Origin: Actinomycetota bacterium
Lineage (GTDB): Bacteria > Actinomycetota > Humimicrobiia > Humimicrobiales > Humimicrobiaceae
Direction of reading: 5' to 3'
Length of the DNA stretch: 6,338 nucleotides
Assembly (NCBI GenBank): GCA_023379515.1
Contig: JAMCQQ010000051.1
Coordinates: 1-6,338 of the forward strand
Shown: one piece after another, positions 2 to 6,338 of the stretch
How positions within the stretch are numbered: position 1 is the first letter of the stretch
Layout: every line of letters starts with the position of its first letter
Made by a program: the position numbers and the translations under genes
Notes under the pieces: generated by a model
Told to the model about the DNA's origin: nothing
Database searches by the model: none
The model's input: the letters and a program-made list of their open reading frames with translations, nothing else

Positions 2-322
2 CTTACCGGTAAAATTGCATGGACTAAAAATTACAATGCCCTCAATGTTGGTGCTGCCACTGTTGTAAATGATCTCGTATTTACATCAACTTTTGACGGT
101 ATGATTCATGCTCTAAACAACAAGACAGGTGAAGAAGTCTGGAGTTATCAGGCAAGCGGCCCGATTAATGGGTGGCCTGCCGTAAAGGGAGATACGATAA
201 TAGTTCCGGTAGGTATGGGTAAGACACCAATGCTGATTGCTTTCAAGATAGGGGCAAGTGCACAAGCACCTGCTGAAACCACTGCTGCGCCAGGTGGAAC
301 AGGAAAGGGATTTCAGCAATAA
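2..322 (+). CDS. PQQ-binding-like beta-propeller protein, C-terminal part (5' truncated by window edge)
   Basis: The reading frame is open from the first bases and ends in TAA at 320-322, so only about 106 C-terminal residues are visible and the start lies outside the window. The visible part carries blade repeats typical of PQQ/pyrrolo-quinoline quinone propellers. TGKIAWTKNY is followed by a V-N-D-L-V-F strand and DGMIHALNNKTGEEVWSY, then a second partial blade (GWPAVKGDTIIVPVG). The pattern of a strand, 'D-G-x-I-x-A-L-x-x-x-T-G-x-x-x-W', and the next strand is the family signature. The last 25 or so residues are an Ala/Pro/Thr/Gly-rich low-complexity tail ending GKGFQQ, probably disordered. 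Such proteins are usually periplasmic and may be quinoprotein dehydrogenases or non-catalytic scaffolds (BamB-like). The substrate cannot be told from this fragment. It is convergent with hpnG, separated by a terminator, and probably not functionally linked to the isoprenoid genes. Confidence 0.78.
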   Translation, partial: LTGKIAWTKNYNALNVGAATVVNDLVFTSTFDGMIHALNNKTGEEVWSYQASGPINGWPAVKGDTIIVPVGMGKTPMLIAFKIGASAQAPAETTAAPGGTGKGFQQ

Positions 323-508: not shown

Positions 509-1294
509 TTAGGATGAGGGCATATTTATAATTGAAAGTATAAAATTATGCAGGCTCCTGCATGCTTTTTTAAAATTATTTCCGTTTCTGACTAATTTTG
601 TAATTTCTGACGGATTTCTAAGGACAAAACGGATTACTTTAGGATAATTGATAAAGGCACCATTAATCAGATTTTCATAGGATAGTGATACACTATATTT
701 CATATTGTCAGAGATTGATCTCACACATAAAACAGGAATTTTATCCGATGGAAGAAAGTTAAGCAGCCAGTAGCTTTCCATATCAACAGCATCTATACTA
801 AATTCCGGATCCAAGAACTCTTTTCGTGCTTTATCTGCAATTATATTGTTGACAGTAAGTAAGTTTCCATAATAAGTTGTACAGTAATCATGTTTAATAA
901 TTTTAAAGTCATTTAACCTGTCAGAAATTACAAAATTAGTCAGAAACGGAATTTTATTATCATCTGAGCATAAAGAATAAATATTTTTACAAATAATAAT
1001 ATCTCCTATGGAAAAACTTTCGTGCATAGCACCTGAAACACCGGCAATTATAATTTTTTCTATAAAATTATGTCCATTTTGGGTGGAATCTTTATTTAAG
1101 AAATTATCTTTTATGAATTGGGCCGCAGTTTTGGCATTTTTCTTACCTATTCCTGTAATTACAAGCAATATTTCTTTATTGTTGATAAGACCTTCATAAA
1201 TCAGTATTTCACCACTGCTCAGTTTTTTCCTGTTTTTCATTTTTCTCAGGAGACTGTTTAATTCAAATTTTAGGGCGCTGAATATTAGAATCAA
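509..1294 (-). CDS. hpnG: HpnG, hopanoid-associated nucleoside phosphorylase
   Basis: This 261-residue protein belongs to the purine nucleoside phosphorylase/MTA-SAH nucleosidase (PNP_UDP) fold. Visible motifs are an N-terminal ILIFSALKFELNSLL strand-helix, ITGIGKKNA (46-54), GVSGAM (85-90) with the following SIGDII, the substrate-binding DMES (Glu173), and SISDN with Asp196 in the place of the catalytic acid of the nucleosidases. The tail after residue 215 (I-R-F-V-L-R-N-P-S-E-I-T-K-L then a long helix) resembles the extended C-terminus of HpnG rather than the shorter MTA/SAH nucleosidases. In hopanoid producers HpnG removes adenine from adenosylhopane, leading to ribosylhopane, the precursor of bacteriohopanetetrol. 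The start is TTG at 1294-1292, supported by an AAGGA ribosome binding site 7 nt upstream. It is transcribed divergently from the cluster containing hpnH, the preceding enzyme in the pathway. A general MTA/SAH nucleosidase remains possible, but the context favours HpnG. Confidence 0.87.
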   Translation of the reverse strand: MILIFSALKFELNSLLRKMKNRKKLSSGEILIYEGLINNKEILLVITGIGKKNAKTAAQFIKDNFLNKDSTQNGHNFIEKIIIAGVSGAMHESFSIGDIIICKNIYSLCSDDNKIPFLTNFVISDRLNDFKIIKHDYCTTYYGNLLTVNNIIADKARKEFLDPEFSIDAVDMESYWLLNFLPSDKIPVLCVRSISDNMKYSVSLSYENLINGAFINYPKVIRFVLRNPSEITKLVRNGNNFKKACRSLHNFILSIINMPSS

Positions 1295-1301
1295 CTCTAT
1301 T

Positions 1302-1306
1302 TCCTT
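1302..1306 (-). promoter_or_regulatory. Ribosome binding site of hpnG
   Basis: On the minus strand AAGGA is followed by 7 nt and then TTG at 1294-1292. This strong Shine-Dalgarno match fixes the non-ATG start of hpnG. Confidence 0.7.
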
Positions 1307-1428
1307 TTCTGAAAATATTCATTACTTGACTGATATTGTCGGTTTCAAATTTAGAAACCCCTAAAAAAACTATGGGCTTTTGAGCTTTAAAAGATTTTGG
1401 CTAATCACAAATAATTTTAATATTATAA

Positions 1429-1484
1429 AAACATACTTAAGGTATTAATAAAATTTATAACTTGATAAAAATTTAAACATACTT
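1429..1484. repeat. Direct repeat AAACATACTT (two copies, 46 bp apart)
   Basis: Identical 10-mers occupy 1429-1438 and 1475-1484. Each copy contains ATAC followed downstream by GTAT (1433-1436/1442-1445 and 1479-1482/1492-1495), so each also has an imperfect dyad. The first overlaps the region just upstream of a TATAAT for the minus-strand gene, and the second abuts the predicted -10 of the plus-strand promoter. That is a plausible arrangement for a regulator acting on both genes. Base composition is very A+T-rich, so chance similarity is possible. Confidence 0.4.
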
Positions 1485-1490
1485 TAAGAT
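1462..1490 (+). promoter_or_regulatory. Predicted sigma70-type promoter for the isoprenoid/hopanoid operon
   Basis: TTGATA (1462-1467, 5 of 6 match to the -35 consensus) and TAAGAT (1485-1490, 4 of 6 match to the -10) are separated by exactly 17 bp. Transcription would start near 1497 and give a leader of about 45 nt before the TTG start at 1543. It lies on the correct strand in an AT-rich divergent gap. Confidence 0.5.
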
Positions 1491-1530
1491 TGTATCATAA
1501 AAACCTGAGTTTAAATATCAATTATGGAAC

Positions 1531-1534
1531 GGAG
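1531..1534 (+). promoter_or_regulatory. Ribosome binding site of the DRL gene
   Basis: GGAG lies 8 nt before TTG at 1543. The frame is closed by a stop at 1498-1500 and has no ATG between that stop and 1543, so this site and the TTG decide the start. Confidence 0.6.
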
Positions 1535-1542
1535 CTGCTCTT

Positions 1543-2856
1543 TTGTTAGGAATCAATGAAAAGCTTAATAATCTGCATGCTGAAAATAAAACCATTAATG
1601 TTGCAGTCGCAGGCATCGGTCAAATGGGAAGCAGCATAGTGAGTCACCTTAATAGTTTAAAAGCATTTAAGGTTTGTGCTATCGCTAATAGAAATGTCCA
1701 AAAATCTTACGACAGAGTAAAATCTCTGGGATATAGCGATAATGATATTTATGTAGTTGAAAAAGATTCAACAAAAAACCACAGTAGTGAAGACGAAAGC
1801 AAAGCTATTCAATCAGGTAAAATTATTTTTACTGATAATCTTGCTGTAATGTCGCAGATAAAGGAAGTGGATGTAATAGTAGATGCTACAGGAAGTCCTG
1901 AGGCAGGTGCTCAAATTGCTGTTACAGGGATCAGCAATAAAAAACATGTAGTTAGTTTAAATGTTGAAGCCGATACATCGGTTGGTCCTCTTCTTAAAAA
2001 ATTGGCCATAAATTCCGGTGTTGTTTATACGGTTGCAGCAGGAGATGAACCGGCAGCCTTGAAAGAATTATATGACTTTGCCACTGCCCTGAATTTAGAA
2101 GTAATTGCAGCAGGAAAAGGGAAAAACAATCCCTTAAACAGAGATGCAAATCCGACCACACTAAGAGAATATTCTGAGCAAAAAGGTACAAGTCCGAAAA
2201 TGATGACCTCATTTGTTGATGGGACAAAGTCAATGGTAGAAATGGCATGTTTTTCTAATGCAACAGGCATAATTCCTGATTGCAGAGGCATGCATGCCCC
2301 GCATGTAAATGTTGAAGATCTTACAAAAGTTTTCAGTCTTAAAGAGGATGGCGGAATTCTTGACAAAAAAGGTGTTGTAGATTTTGCAATCGGAAATGTG
2401 GCACCTGGTGTTTTTCTTATATATTCAACCGAACAGGAAATATTACGCAAAGAATTGAAATATCTTTTATTTGGAGACGGTCCCAATTATCTTTTATACA
2501 GGCCTTACCACCTTACGAGCATAGAATCACCTCTATCGATCGCAAGAGCATACTTTTACAATGAACCAACAATTACACCTAAAAATGGGATGATTTCAGA
2601 AGTAATTACAATGGCGAAAATAGATTTAAAAAAAGGTGAATCAATAGATGGTATCGGCGGTTACTCTGTTTATGGTTCAATAGAGCTTTATCAAAAAGCA
2701 AAGGACCAAAACCTTCTTCCTCTTGGATTAAGCGAGAATACGGTTTTAAAAAACGATGTTAAGAAGGGTGAACCAATAAGATACGAAGATGTTCATATAA
2801 GTGACGACTCCGTAATTTATAAGCTAAGAAAATTGCAGGAAATGATAATTGGTTAA
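1543..2856 (+). CDS. drl: DRL (DXR-II) family oxidoreductase, probable 1-deoxy-D-xylulose 5-phosphate reductoisomerase-like enzyme
   Basis: This is a 437-residue NAD(P)-dependent oxidoreductase with a homoserine-dehydrogenase-like fold and a C-terminal SAF-type domain. The Rossmann motif GIGQMG is at 24-29. It is followed by DATGSPEAGA (114-123), LNVEADTSVGP (139-149), AGDEPAA (166-172), AGKGKNNPLN (190-199) and GTKSMVEMA (227-235), with the SAF-like segment from about 350 to 430. This motif series and the length match the DRL family as I recall it from Brucella abortus. There DRL replaces ordinary DXR and converts 1-deoxy-D-xylulose 5-phosphate to 2-C-methyl-D-erythritol 4-phosphate using NADPH. 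Not every family member has that activity, so the reaction here is inference. Support comes from its position at the head of an operon with a prenyl synthase, IPP isomerase and hopanoid genes. The start is TTG with a GGAG site. The 3' end overlaps the next gene's upstream TTG candidate. Automatic annotation would probably say homoserine dehydrogenase or SAF-domain protein. Confidence 0.8.
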   Translation: MLGINEKLNNLHAENKTINVAVAGIGQMGSSIVSHLNSLKAFKVCAIANRNVQKSYDRVKSLGYSDNDIYVVEKDSTKNHSSEDESKAIQSGKIIFTDNLAVMSQIKEVDVIVDATGSPEAGAQIAVTGISNKKHVVSLNVEADTSVGPLLKKLAINSGVVYTVAAGDEPAALKELYDFATALNLEVIAAGKGKNNPLNRDANPTTLREYSEQKGTSPKMMTSFVDGTKSMVEMACFSNATGIIPDCRGMHAPHVNVEDLTKVFSLKEDGGILDKKGVVDFAIGNVAPGVFLIYSTEQEILRKELKYLLFGDGPNYLLYRPYHLTSIESPLSIARAYFYNEPTITPKNGMISEVITMAKIDLKKGESIDGIGGYSVYGSIELYQKAKDQNLLPLGLSENTVLKNDVKKGEPIRYEDVHISDDSVIYKLRKLQEMIIG

Positions 2857-3925
2857 TAAATCTCAGGGGGAAAATTTGTCTGAATTACCTGAAATATTTG
2901 AAACTTACAGACCTTTTCTGGAAGAGGAAATAAAATCCATAATTTCTGACGGCGAGCTCTTCAAAATTTCAAAAAACAAAACGACGATCTATGATATGAT
3001 GGCTTATCACTTGGGTTGGGCAGATGAAAACGGTGATAAAATTCAATTAAACAGTGGTAAATATCTCAGAGCAACTTTAACCCTTGTTGCCTGCGATTCC
3101 GTATGTGATGAGTTCAAGATTGCCCTGCCTGCCGCTGCGGCAATTGAATTAATCCATAATTTTTCACTCGTTCATGACGATATTCAGGACTGTGATGAAA
3201 TGCGCCGCCATAGACCCACGGTATGGAAAATATGGGGCAAACCCCAGGCAATTAATGTCGGCAGTGCGATGCATGCTCTCTCCACCCTTGCAGTTTTAAA
3301 GTTATCACATAACAAGATAATTCCCGGAAAAATGATAGATGTTTTAAAAATTTTGGATGAGAGTTGTCTGAAAATGATTGAAGGACAATATCTGGATATA
3401 GATTTTGAGAACAGAGGAGATATAACGGTCAAAAATTATCTTGAAATGATTGAGAGAAAAACTGCTGCGCTTATTCAATGTTCGCTTCAAATTGGTGCCG
3501 TCTTGACATTGGATTATAACAAAATGGAGCCTTTTAAAAATTTCGGCAAATACATGGGAATTGCATTCCAGACAAGGGACGACATTTTGGGTATATGGGG
3601 CAATAATAAAAAAACAGGAAAACCAAGCGGAAACGATCTTAAGAGAAAGAAAAAATCGCTGCCGGTTGTTTATTTACTTTCAAGTAATGACAGAAGCTTA
3701 AAAAGGGAATTTTTAGATATTTTTAAAAAAGAGAACATAAGCGATGATGATACTTATAAAATATTGGAAATTTTTGAAAAAATAAAAGCAAAACAGTTTT
3801 GCGAACAAACGACCGAGACTTATTACAACCTGGCATTGAATGAAATGGTAAATCTTCCGGTTAAGGCAAATAAATTGAAACATTACAGAGAAATAGTTGA
3901 TTTTTTAATTAAAAGAGAATTTTAA
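2849..3925 (+). CDS. Polyprenyl (geranylgeranyl/farnesyl-type) diphosphate synthase
   Basis: This soluble, all-helical trans-prenyltransferase condenses allylic diphosphates with isopentenyl diphosphate. Numbered from the upstream TTG (358 residues), it shows SGKYLRATL (69-77) as the substrate-binding GK-x-x-R region. The first aspartate-rich motif is DDIQD (110-114), followed by RRHRPT (119-124), and the Lys-Thr of ERKTAAL is at 204-205. The second aspartate motif is in the variant form QTRDDILG (241-248), then GKPSGNDLKRKKKSLP. The first motif has no two-residue insertion, and Phe105-Ser106 occupy the fifth and fourth positions before it. This is more like archaeal-type C20 synthases than IspA-type farnesyl synthases, but product length cannot be fixed from sequence. 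Two TTG starts are possible. The one at 2849 overlaps the DRL gene by 8 bp with AGGA 8 nt upstream. The one at 2876 has AGGGGG 5 nt upstream and would give 349 residues. Its likely role is to supply the C15/C20 precursor for the isoprenoid lipids of this locus. Confidence 0.94.
   Translation: MVNKSQGENLSELPEIFETYRPFLEEEIKSIISDGELFKISKNKTTIYDMMAYHLGWADENGDKIQLNSGKYLRATLTLVACDSVCDEFKIALPAAAAIELIHNFSLVHDDIQDCDEMRRHRPTVWKIWGKPQAINVGSAMHALSTLAVLKLSHNKIIPGKMIDVLKILDESCLKMIEGQYLDIDFENRGDITVKNYLEMIERKTAALIQCSLQIGAVLTLDYNKMEPFKNFGKYMGIAFQTRDDILGIWGNNKKTGKPSGNDLKRKKKSLPVVYLLSSNDRSLKREFLDIFKKENISDDDTYKILEIFEKIKAKQFCEQTTETYYNLALNEMVNLPVKANKLKHYREIVDFLIKREF
2865..2870 (+). promoter_or_regulatory. Candidate ribosome binding site for the alternative prenyl synthase start at 2876
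   Basis: AGGGGG followed by 5 nt and TTG at 2876 competes with AGGA (2837-2840) plus 8 nt and TTG at 2849. The 2876 start would remove nine residues and the overlap with the DRL gene. Both are plausible and the conserved domain starts after either. Confidence 0.45.
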
Positions 3926-3983: not shown

Positions 3984-5060
3984 ATGATGAAAAAAGAAAA
4001 CAGTTTTTCTGCTTTAAAGATTGCAAACGAGAAACGTAAAGAAGAGCATCTTCAAATCAGCTTAAATAAGGATGTAAGTTTTAAAAAAATCAGTTCAGGT
4101 TTTGAAGGGTTTTTATTTATTCATCAGGCACTTCCTGATATCGACATGAACAAAATAGATCTTTCTACGGAAATTTTTGGAAAGAAGCTGTCACTGCCGC
4201 TTATGCTGTCACCGCTTGTCGGTGGGACAGATAAAACTAAAGAGATAAATAAAAATCTTGCAAGAGTAGCCTCGGAGTTAAAAATTGCAATGAGTGTCGG
4301 CTCGCAGAGAACTGCAATTGAGAATATTGAAGTTGAAGAAACATATAAAGTTCGCGAGATAGCCCCTGAAATTCTTCTTTTTGCAAATCTCGGAGCAGTC
4401 CAATTAAATTATGGTTTTGGCATTGAACAGTGCAACAAGGCAGTCGATATGATTGAAGCGGATAGCTTAATTCTTCATTTAAATCCGCTTCAGGAAGCTT
4501 TTCAGCATGAAGGGAATCATAATTTTAAGAATCTGTCAAAAAAAATAAGCACGATATGTCAGGATGCAGCTTATCCTGTGATAGTGCGGGAAGTCGGATT
4601 TGGCATATCTGAAGAAACTGCAAAAAAATTATTGACAGCAGGAGTATCGGGAATTGACGTTGGCGGCGCCGGAGGCACATCATGGATTGAAGTTGAAAAA
4701 AACAGAACCAGCAGCAGGATTTTCAAAAAAGTAGCCGGTGACTTTTGCCAATGGGGTATACCTACTGCCGAAAGCATATTATCTGTAAAAAAAGTTGTGG
4801 GTAAAAACTCTGTGAAAATAATTGCAAGCGGAGGAATCAGGAGCGGGTTGGATGTTGCAAAGGCAATAGCACTTGGTGCCGACATTGCAGGTATTGGACT
4901 TCCGGTGCTTAAAAATATTCATTTATCAATAGACAAATGTATGGAATATATAATGGAAGTTGCTTTAGGTTTAAAAATTGCAATGTTCGGAATTGGAGCT
5001 TCCAGCATAAGTGAGCTAAAAAATAGTAAATATTTAAAAAAGAAAAAAGATGATTTTTAA
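3984..5060 (+). CDS. fni: Type 2 (FMN-dependent) isopentenyl diphosphate delta-isomerase
   Basis: This cytosolic flavoenzyme interconverts isopentenyl and dimethylallyl diphosphate using reduced FMN. The 358-residue TIM-barrel protein shows the family signatures in order. They are the N-terminal EKRKEEHLQI (R18, K19, H22, substrate diphosphate binding), LSPLVGGT (75-82), MSVGSQR (103-109), FANLGA (133-138), HLNPLQE (165-171, with the Asn, Gln and acidic residue of the active site) and VREVGFGIS (201-209). They continue with DVGGAGGTSW (225-234), the phosphate-binding ASGGIRSGLDVAKAIALGAD (281-300) and the C-terminal MFGIGASSISEL. Most homologues I recall have Lys where R202 stands, a conservative change. 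The first ATG of a pair is used and no Shine-Dalgarno sequence is visible. The start cannot be much later because R18-H22 are essential. It is preceded by a 58-bp gap and followed by hpnH after 9 bp. IPP isomerase is not essential to the MEP route, so here it probably tunes the IPP:DMAPP ratio. Confidence 0.95.
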   Translation: MMKKENSFSALKIANEKRKEEHLQISLNKDVSFKKISSGFEGFLFIHQALPDIDMNKIDLSTEIFGKKLSLPLMLSPLVGGTDKTKEINKNLARVASELKIAMSVGSQRTAIENIEVEETYKVREIAPEILLFANLGAVQLNYGFGIEQCNKAVDMIEADSLILHLNPLQEAFQHEGNHNFKNLSKKISTICQDAAYPVIVREVGFGISEETAKKLLTAGVSGIDVGGAGGTSWIEVEKNRTSSRIFKKVAGDFCQWGIPTAESILSVKKVVGKNSVKIIASGGIRSGLDVAKAIALGADIAGIGLPVLKNIHLSIDKCMEYIMEVALGLKIAMFGIGASSISELKNSKYLKKKKDDF

Positions 5061-5069
5061 AAAACAACA

Positions 5070-6065
5070 ATGATTTATTCAGCTAAACTGTCTTCAAAAA
5101 TAATAAAAAATATTGTTTCAAATAAAATCAGAGGTATAGACAAGATCCCTTATGCGTTAATGCTTGAACCTCTTTTTAAATGCAATCTTAACTGCACCGG
5201 ATGCGGACGGATAAGGGAATACAGGGAAGTTTTATCTAAAAAATTAACTGTATCCGAATGTATTGACGCAGCTCAGCAGGCAAAAGCGCCTGTTATATCA
5301 ATAACAGGGGGAGAACCTTTGATCCATCCCCAGATAAAGGAAATTGTAAACGAACTTTTAAAAAGAAATTTTTTTGTATATCTGTGTACAAACGGATTGC
5401 TTCTTTCAGACTTTGTGGATGAAATAAAACCAAGAAAAGAATTAAGTATTGTAGTTCATCTTGATGGATTTTCTCAACTGCATAACAGCTTTGCAGGATC
5501 CAGTAATGTTTTTGAAAAAGCCATTGAAGGTATAGAAAAAGCTGTAAAACTGAATTTCGGAATTATTACAAATACAACAATATACAGAAATACTGATGAA
5601 AATGAAATCCTGAACCTGTTTTCGTATTTAATGTCATTGGGAATTAAGGGTGTGCTTGTTTCGCCGGGATTTCATTATAGTTCAGTTGATAAAAAAGACT
5701 TGTTTATGGAAAAAAATGAAATTCATAAAAAATTTGCAAATATTTATTCAAAACTTAACGGTATAAAAATTTATAATACACCTCTTTACTGGGAATTTCT
5801 TCAGGGGAAACGAAATCTTAAATGCATGCCCTGGTCAACCCCAACATTTAATGTAAAAGGCTGGAAAAGCCCATGCTATCTCATAACGGATTGTCACTTT
5901 TCTACTTACAGGGAATACATGGAAAATACTTCCTGGGAAAAATATGGAACAGATGCTGACGAAAGGTGCTCTAATTGTATGATGCACTGTGGTTTTGAGG
6001 CAAGCGCAATATCAGGTGCAAGGGTAAATGATTTAATAAAAACTCTGAAGTGGAATTTTTCCTAA
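5070..6065 (+). CDS. hpnH: HpnH, radical SAM adenosylhopane synthase
   Basis: This 331-residue radical SAM protein binds a [4Fe-4S] cluster through CNLNCTGC (C38, C42, C45) and S-adenosylmethionine through ITGGEP (78-83). It starts with a short helix and then LMLEPLFKCNL, the opening typical of HpnH. Other family-specific blocks are VYLCTNGLLL (103-112), VVHLDG (128-133), VSPGF (197-201), CMPWSTPT (252-259), GWKSPCYLI (264-272) and a C-terminal CSNCMMHCGFEA (300-311) in the DUF3463-type domain. Six cysteines in the last 80 residues (C252, C269, C275, C300, C303, C307) might hold further metal or cluster ligands. HpnH adds the 5'-deoxyadenosyl radical to a hopene (diploptene) to form adenosylhopane, the first step of extended C35 hopanoids; HpnG acts next. 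The ATG start at 5070 aligns with the family N-terminus, but no Shine-Dalgarno sequence precedes it. It lies 9 bp after the isomerase gene, so is almost certainly co-transcribed with it. Confidence 0.94.
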   Translation: MIYSAKLSSKIIKNIVSNKIRGIDKIPYALMLEPLFKCNLNCTGCGRIREYREVLSKKLTVSECIDAAQQAKAPVISITGGEPLIHPQIKEIVNELLKRNFFVYLCTNGLLLSDFVDEIKPRKELSIVVHLDGFSQLHNSFAGSSNVFEKAIEGIEKAVKLNFGIITNTTIYRNTDENEILNLFSYLMSLGIKGVLVSPGFHYSSVDKKDLFMEKNEIHKKFANIYSKLNGIKIYNTPLYWEFLQGKRNLKCMPWSTPTFNVKGWKSPCYLITDCHFSTYREYMENTSWEKYGTDADERCSNCMMHCGFEASAISGARVNDLIKTLKWNFS

Positions 6066-6087: not shown

Positions 6088-6338
6088 ATGAAAATATTGG
6101 TTACGGGTGCAACCGGATTTATAGGCGGCAATATTGCAATAAAGCTTGTGAACGCAGGTTATGAAACAAATATATTGATTAGAAAAAACAGCGGGAATTT
6201 AAATATAAAAGGGCTGCCCGTAAATATTTTCTACGGTGATTTGACTGATTATGATTCATTAAAAGATTCATTAAAAAACTGTTCGGTGCTTATTCACACT
6301 GCAGCATTTTATGCTTTCTGGTCCAGAAATCCCGCCCT
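6088..6338 (+). CDS. hpnA: HpnA, hopanoid-associated NAD-dependent sugar epimerase-like protein (3' truncated by window edge)
   Basis: The first 83 residues of an extended short-chain dehydrogenase/reductase (epimerase family) are visible, and the frame is open to the window end. The N-terminal Rossmann motif is TGATGFIG (6-13). It is followed by VNAGYETNILIRKNSGN, where R33 is in a nucleotide-binding place, then FYGDLTDYDSLKDSLKNC and LIHTAAFYAFWSRNP. The 'H-x-A-A-x-Y-x-x-W-x-R-x-P' block is characteristic of HpnA and of related dihydroflavonol-reductase-like proteins. HpnA is widely found in hopanoid clusters, but its reaction is not firmly established; modification of the hopanoid sugar side chain is the usual guess. 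The ATG start has a weak GAG (6077-6079) at 8 nt and lies 22 bp after hpnH, so it is probably in the same operon. The catalytic Tyr-x-x-x-Lys lies beyond the window. Confidence 0.85.
   Translation, partial: MKILVTGATGFIGGNIAIKLVNAGYETNILIRKNSGNLNIKGLPVNIFYGDLTDYDSLKDSLKNCSVLIHTAAFYAFWSRNPA

Follow-up and report, generated by a model that had tools for sequence, protein, structure and literature searches.

The 6,338-nt stretch of DNA analysed here (contig JAMCQQ010000051.1; hereafter, the window) belongs to a little-studied group of uncultured Actinomycetota; in most relatives, the enzymes that usually catalyse the two entry steps of the 2-C-methylerythritol 4-phosphate (MEP) pathway are missing. 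An open reading frame (ORF) of 437 codons runs without interruption on its plus strand, from 1543 to 2856, and the original prediction, made from the letters alone, assigned the product to the DRL, or type II DXR (DXR-II), family. This assignment is borne out by profile and pairwise searches. Residues 167-328 score 210.1 bits on the Pfam domain DRL_cat (PF21135; cut-off 27), and Brucella abortus DRL (3UPL, 3UPY) aligns with residues 14-437 at 324 bits (phmmer), with 157 of 416 aligned residues identical (38%). Pfam also recognises a homoserine-dehydrogenase-type NAD-binding domain (PF03447, 35.8 bits), the family layout of an N-terminal NAD(P)-binding domain and a DRL catalytic domain is complete along the protein, and the predicted fold agrees with that of the Brucella enzyme. 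Since 7,943 of 8,000 scored candidates match the window DRL at E ≤ 0.001, the similarity is far above chance. At the same threshold, the ordinary DXR profiles of Pfam and NCBIfam (DXP_reductoisom, Dxr) give no match to the protein, and the NCBIfam homoserine dehydrogenase model PRK06349 reaches 21.7 bits, under its cut-off of 205.

By sequence, the nearest relatives of the window are uncultured Actinomycetota. The DRL protein of L001, from the metagenome-assembled genome (MAG) KR13_N2.mb.106, is 92% identical to that of the window, with 89% DNA identity over 3,182 aligned positions; that of P0003 (Candidatus Humimicrobiaceae) is 84% identical. Gene presence and absence were read in 40 genomes, given without completeness values, of the class to which the nearest relative genome (G001) belongs, and these stand in for the window genome. 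Because of the names of close members such as P0003, we call this class Humimicrobiia, a name listed in NCBI taxonomy.

Window residues K192 and K194 are the equivalents of Brucella Lys191 and Lys193, which anchor fosmidomycin and substrate (PMC3847144). Together with Asn194, Asn195, and His250 (Brucella numbering), these lysines are kept in all 37 class rows of the alignment. The references from the DXR-II-like oxidoreductase families, DLO1 and DLO2, differ at Lys193 and Asn195, and their Thr229 site is also changed; all five DLO or DLO-like references that were read in the right frame (L120, L121, L123, L124, and L126) differ at the three sites.

In a careful tree of 54 rows, 30 class-type rows form the clade that holds the window (support 94/95), and this clade lies within 46 rows that include the Brucella and Listeria innocua DRLs, with the DLO1 and DLO2 references outside. 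A quick tree of 93 rows gives the same split at 86, with a warning that long branches meet in the DLO part of the tree; the DLO labels were taken from organism names in PMC3847144 and not from its sequences. This placement is consistent with a DXR-II identity, though no proof of it. Two DRL proteins labelled archaeal (P0098 and P0115, from Methanosarcinales and Nitrososphaeraceae MAGs) also lie inside the actinobacterial class clade, and for that reason they are probably from misbinned contigs.

The neighbours listed in the original prediction, namely a prenyl diphosphate synthase, an isopentenyl diphosphate (IPP) isomerase, and hopanoid genes, were all recovered by profile search (Table 1). 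Comparing the prenyl synthase gene with that of L001 led to the choice of the TTG start; its longest ORF would start at 2849 and overlap the DRL stop. The HpnA-type piece matches TIGR03466 at 79.7 bits over 82 residues, the whole-protein cut-off of 368 being beyond the reach of a cut piece. The nucleoside phosphorylase family gene is divergent from the DRL operon, and it also adjoins DRL in L001 (80%). Promoter-like matches in the whole window number 33, versus 23.8 (standard deviation 4.7) in shuffles, which is not evidence of function, and Rfam gives no matches in the window.

Table 1. Features of the window.
Feature	Positions	Strand	Basis or remark
DRL / DXR-II-type NAD(P)H-dependent oxidoreductase	1543..2856	+	437 aa, TTG start
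K192-G-K194-N195-N196 motif	2116..2130	+	Alignment with Brucella; residue roles per PMC3847144
Ser230 codon, position of Brucella Thr229	2230..2232	+	Alignment; PMC3847144
Prenyl diphosphate synthase	2876..3925	+	PF00348, 211 bits; no NCBIfam family over its cut-off to assign a product length
Type 2 isopentenyl-diphosphate isomerase (IDI-2)	3984..5060	+	TIGR02151, 405 bits, cut-off 281
Adenosyl-hopene transferase HpnH (radical SAM)	5070..6065	+	TIGR03470, 380 bits, cut-off 225
Hopanoid-associated HpnA-type epimerase, first 83 codons, cut by window end	6088..6338	+	TIGR03466 best
Nucleoside phosphorylase family protein, MTA/SAH-nucleosidase- and HpnG-like	509..1294	-	Under all listed NCBIfam cut-offs
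Intergenic region between divergent genes	1295..1542	.	Putative promoter region for the DRL operon
ORF, C-terminal portion, PQQ-type beta-propeller repeat-like	2..322		Ends upstream; name by reading only

DRL gene contexts and MEP genes in the class

Searched with the window protein, 33 of the 40 class genomes contain DRL, the exceptions being G014, G030, G033, and G037-G040. Genes around the loci were called as the longest ORFs of at least 70 codons and named by BLAST against our own queries, part of them being checked by profile. DRL directly precedes a prenyl synthase gene in 13 of the 33 genomes (G001, G002, G005, G006, G015-G019, G024, and G027-G029). An ispE gene lies in the same run in nine of the 13, the other four (G001, G006, G024, and G029) having contigs that stop too soon to show one. 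By profile, three of the nine ispE genes score 198.8-211.6 bits against a cut-off of 138.7. IDI-2 followed by HpnH, HpnA, and squalene-hopene cyclase is found in five genomes (G002, G005, G015, G016, and G024), with ispE further on in four of the five. The full order in L003 (G002) is DRL, prenyl synthase, IDI-2, HpnH, HpnA, squalene-hopene cyclase, DUF116, ispE, and a TetR-like gene, an order that predicts the genes beyond the window edge. In L085, also a G002 locus, the stretch from prenyl synthase to ispE has no ORF named as IDI-2.

Other contexts also occur. DRL adjoins ApbE/Rnf-like genes in 13 class genomes, as a second copy in G006 and G024, and PaaI-like genes in six, as a second, partial copy in G001. 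The PaaI-like context also includes methyltransferase, nth, and polX-like genes wherever these can be seen. G012, G013, G022, and G023 have none of the three contexts. The ApbE/Rnf-like context (L197, L200, L206, L207, L213, and others) might perhaps relate to reductant supply for IspG and IspH. As named by reading, isopropylmalate/homoaconitate-type genes and two homocitrate-synthase-like genes precede the DRL operon in L090, L092, L085, and L091. A divergent second DRL type lies near split transketolase genes in L087 (5180-6397), L100, and L101, and in L087 it lies inside a sugar-transport-like cluster.

Ordinary Dxr (TIGR00243) is over its cut-off in only two class genomes, G037 and G039, and in none does it occur together with DRL. 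The later enzymes are nearly all present, some as fragments: IspG in 39, IspF in 39, and IspH in 37 of the 40. If Dxr were present and detected at the rate of the least often found of the three, and if the genomes were independent, the chance of missing it in all 33 DRL genomes would be about 1e-37, and genome incompleteness is therefore an unlikely cause of its absence. In G001, IspD (adjoining IspF), IspH, and IspG in two contig pieces were found, whereas profile searches of this genome gave no Dxr and no dxs over the cut-off. Among the DRL-bearing genomes outside the class, neither Dxr nor dxs, the two genes searched there, is over its cut-off in any of the 10 (G041-G050, from Aerophobetes, Firmicutes, and Chloroflexi records, covering 10 of the 12 non-class loci, without L022 and L025).

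The idea of an ordinary Dxr hidden in the relatives was rejected. A search of 12 genomes with PF02670 gave a single match, in G004, just over the cut-off (22.0 against 21.7 bits); by reading, the ORF is homoserine-dehydrogenase-like and has a threonine-synthase-like ORF behind it, and TIGR00243 does not match in G004. A weak third TIGR00243 match (G005, 18.5 bits) falls within the DRL of that genome. The mevalonate pathway was rejected for the class as the source of IPP, with HMG-CoA reductase, the one mevalonate gene searched, in none of the 40 genomes.

Supply of deoxyxylulose 5-phosphate

The full-length dxs model is over its cut-off in none of the 40 class genomes (best 220.7 versus 465.95 bits), the two with ordinary Dxr included, and in 10 of 14 control genomes. 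At E ≤ 1e-30 it matches in 36 class genomes, all under the cut-off, and we read the best match as a probable split transketolase C-subunit. True DXS proteins score hundreds of bits on PF13292, the DXS N-terminal domain. This domain is over its low cut-off of 21.2 in 38 of the 40 genomes, with a best score of 50.8 bits, and also in 13 of the 14 controls, archaea included; since the full-length model is over its cut-off in none of the 40, these matches are read as transketolase or E1 cross-matches. Transketolase-like proteins of 614-626 aa also score far under the dxs cut-off, one of them adjoining a zwf-like ORF near ispH (by reading), and an unusual transketolase-family enzyme may carry out the DXS reaction.

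Another candidate for the DXS substitute is a stand-alone E1-alpha/beta pair, although it is not universal in the class. Matches to E1-alpha (E ≤ 1e-30) occur in 38 of the 40 genomes, and a manual count gives orthologues of at least 59% identity in 23, including three fragments. At 1e-5, the 145 ORFs of 15 fetched E1 stretches, several of which are cut by contig ends, include no E2 relative, in a search of these stretches and not of whole genomes. The stand-alone loci (L097:7192-9166, L098, L143, and L182-L193) often lie near fructose-bisphosphate-aldolase-like, split transketolase, RpiB-like, and transaldolase genes, mostly named by reading, and this cluster of pentose-phosphate-type genes often includes a sugar-binding regulator. 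Counting against the pair as a substitute, the E1 genes of G037-G040 adjoin E2-like ORFs. The nearest precedent for a substitute comes from Escherichia coli, in which suppressor mutants in aceE (pyruvate dehydrogenase E1) or ribB form deoxyxylulose 5-phosphate (DXP; PMC3424233).

It is somewhat more probable than not that canonical DXS is missing from the MEP pathway of the whole class, and that most members do without ordinary DXR too. DXP would come from another enzyme, possibly the stand-alone E1-alpha/beta pyruvate decarboxylase joining pyruvate and glyceraldehyde 3-phosphate, and DRL would then form MEP.

Function of the window DRL

We propose, with a probability of roughly 85%, that the window DRL is a type II DXR serving isoprenoid supply. 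With NAD(P)H it would rearrange and reduce DXP to MEP, the first committed intermediate on the way to isoprenoids; IDI-2 would balance the end products of the pathway to IPP, the prenyl synthase would lengthen them, and the hopanoid genes would consume its product. The isoprenoid role put forward in the original prediction is well supported by genome comparison as well as homology. Homology, predicted fold, active-site residues, gene order, and the gene content of relatives are what we observe; from these we infer the catalysis, the direction of flux, co-transcription, and that the window genome resembles a relative at 89% DNA identity.

Several observations weigh against this proposal. Thr229 is reported to be absolutely conserved in DXR-II and replaced in the DLO families, serine being one DLO2 state (PMC3847144), and the site is serine in the window and in 32 of the 37 class rows. 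The branch separating the DXR-II side from DLO1 and DLO2 has a support of 83/50, which is not significant, in the 54-row tree. No copy was seen in an isoprenoid operon in 20 of the 33 DRL genomes, four of which (G003, G012, G022, and G023) have a contig end just behind DRL. Relatives of DRL also occur in catabolic-looking operons, one of them in the same class (G013), G001 holds a second, partial DRL, and the supply of DXP is unproven, with no dxs over the cut-off in the class. As for Thr229, the residue is a correlate of the DXR-II clade and not its definition. It is threonine in five of the 37 class rows, including L050, from the G028 operon that holds ispE, and in P0005, which is among the closest kin of the window DRL. 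The class rows also suggest that this site, held to mark DXR-II function, can be serine where the operon carries another MEP gene.

It is possible, though we hold it only tentatively, that the window DRL is a true but secondary DXR for hopanoid supply, another copy being the housekeeping enzyme. This is compatible with our proposal and concerns essentiality only. The second fragment in G001, 62% identical over residues 264-436 and near the PaaI-, methyltransferase-, nth-, and polX-like genes, points this way, as do the second copies in G024 and G006; yet the G001 fragment is cut by the contig end, and G005, G015-G019, and G027-G029 have a single DRL match each, within the isoprenoid operon.

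That DRL stands at the entry of the MEP pathway and makes MEP from a phosphosugar other than DXP is unlikely. The missing dxs, inside the class and in the 10 genomes outside it, favours such a substrate, as does replacement of the substrate-anchoring Thr229 by serine. However, G037 and G039, with ordinary Dxr, show no dxs either, which suggests that DXP is made by other means, and the five residues kept in every class row and the threonine of L050 and P0005 also speak against a non-DXP substrate.

Least probable is that the protein acts in catabolism as a sugar-phosphate oxidoreductase, either DLO-like or working from MEP to DXP, and that its operon position is incidental. This reading draws on the modest tree support against the DLO families and on relatives that adjoin GutM, a sugar kinase, sugar-binding regulators, or E1-E2 dehydrogenase genes. 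Against it stand the DRL-prenyl synthase order, which recurs in 13 genomes and takes in ispE on each contig that is long enough, the lack of ordinary Dxr in the 33 DRL genomes, the residue differences of the DLO references, and the window itself, where Pfam and NCBIfam recognise neither a transporter nor a kinase for sugars.

Comparison with known DRL systems

On three rhizobial-type plasmids (L127, L128, and L129), the genes behind DRL are E1-alpha, E1-beta, and E2, two of the plasmids also have E3, and in two a sugar-binding regulator adjoins DRL. The class genome G013 (L130) has the same DRL-E1-E2 order. These four loci might serve to break down methylerythritol or a related sugar to acetyl-CoA. 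A Priestia DRL lies near genes for an MFS transporter, a sugar-binding regulator, and a sugar kinase, and that of Listeria innocua near GutM. Sugar-binding regulators of this kind go by the name SorC. In these contexts we infer a catabolic use, perhaps by the same chemistry reversed, with MEP turned into DXP and then into acetyl-CoA and glyceraldehyde 3-phosphate. No relevant report of a catabolic DRL was found in the open-licence PubMed Central literature, judged mostly by title or the start of the abstract.

In a 2013 survey, most DXR-II enzymes came from Alphaproteobacteria and Firmicutes, and others from Chloroflexi, Betaproteobacteria, and Fusobacteria (PMC3847144); the available text of PMC13001223 calls Dxr-II sporadic, and that of PMC11868695 mentions Humimicrobiia for ether lipids only. 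With ispE, IDI-2, prenyl synthase, and hopanoid genes in the operon as evidence, DXR-II, so far a patchy oddity described chiefly in Alphaproteobacteria and Firmicutes, would become what appears to be the standard DXR throughout a class. Bacteria without Dxs were reported in 2023, mostly without a mechanism: in the accessible part of PMC10663253, Dxs alone is missing in 181 of 4,400 species, Actinobacteria included, and the mechanism is open for 172. There, as in Humimicrobiia, MEP genes are kept without Dxs; DxrI and DxrII are pooled in that text, and it does not single out lineages that bear DRL and lack Dxs. With all 40 genomes showing no canonical dxs and nearly all keeping the later MEP genes, the missing step is directly testable.

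Ordinary DXR (DXR-I, IspC) presumably catalyses the same reaction as the window DRL and has the NADPH-binding type of N-terminal domain in common with it. The DLO families share the DRL_cat domain with the window (L120, L121), and four DLO members did not complement a dxr mutant (PMC3847144). From Brucella DXR-II, the window protein differs in its 38% identity and its serine at Thr229. Unlike the Brucella gene, the window DRL stands in an isoprenoid and hopanoid operon, in a class that shows no canonical dxs.
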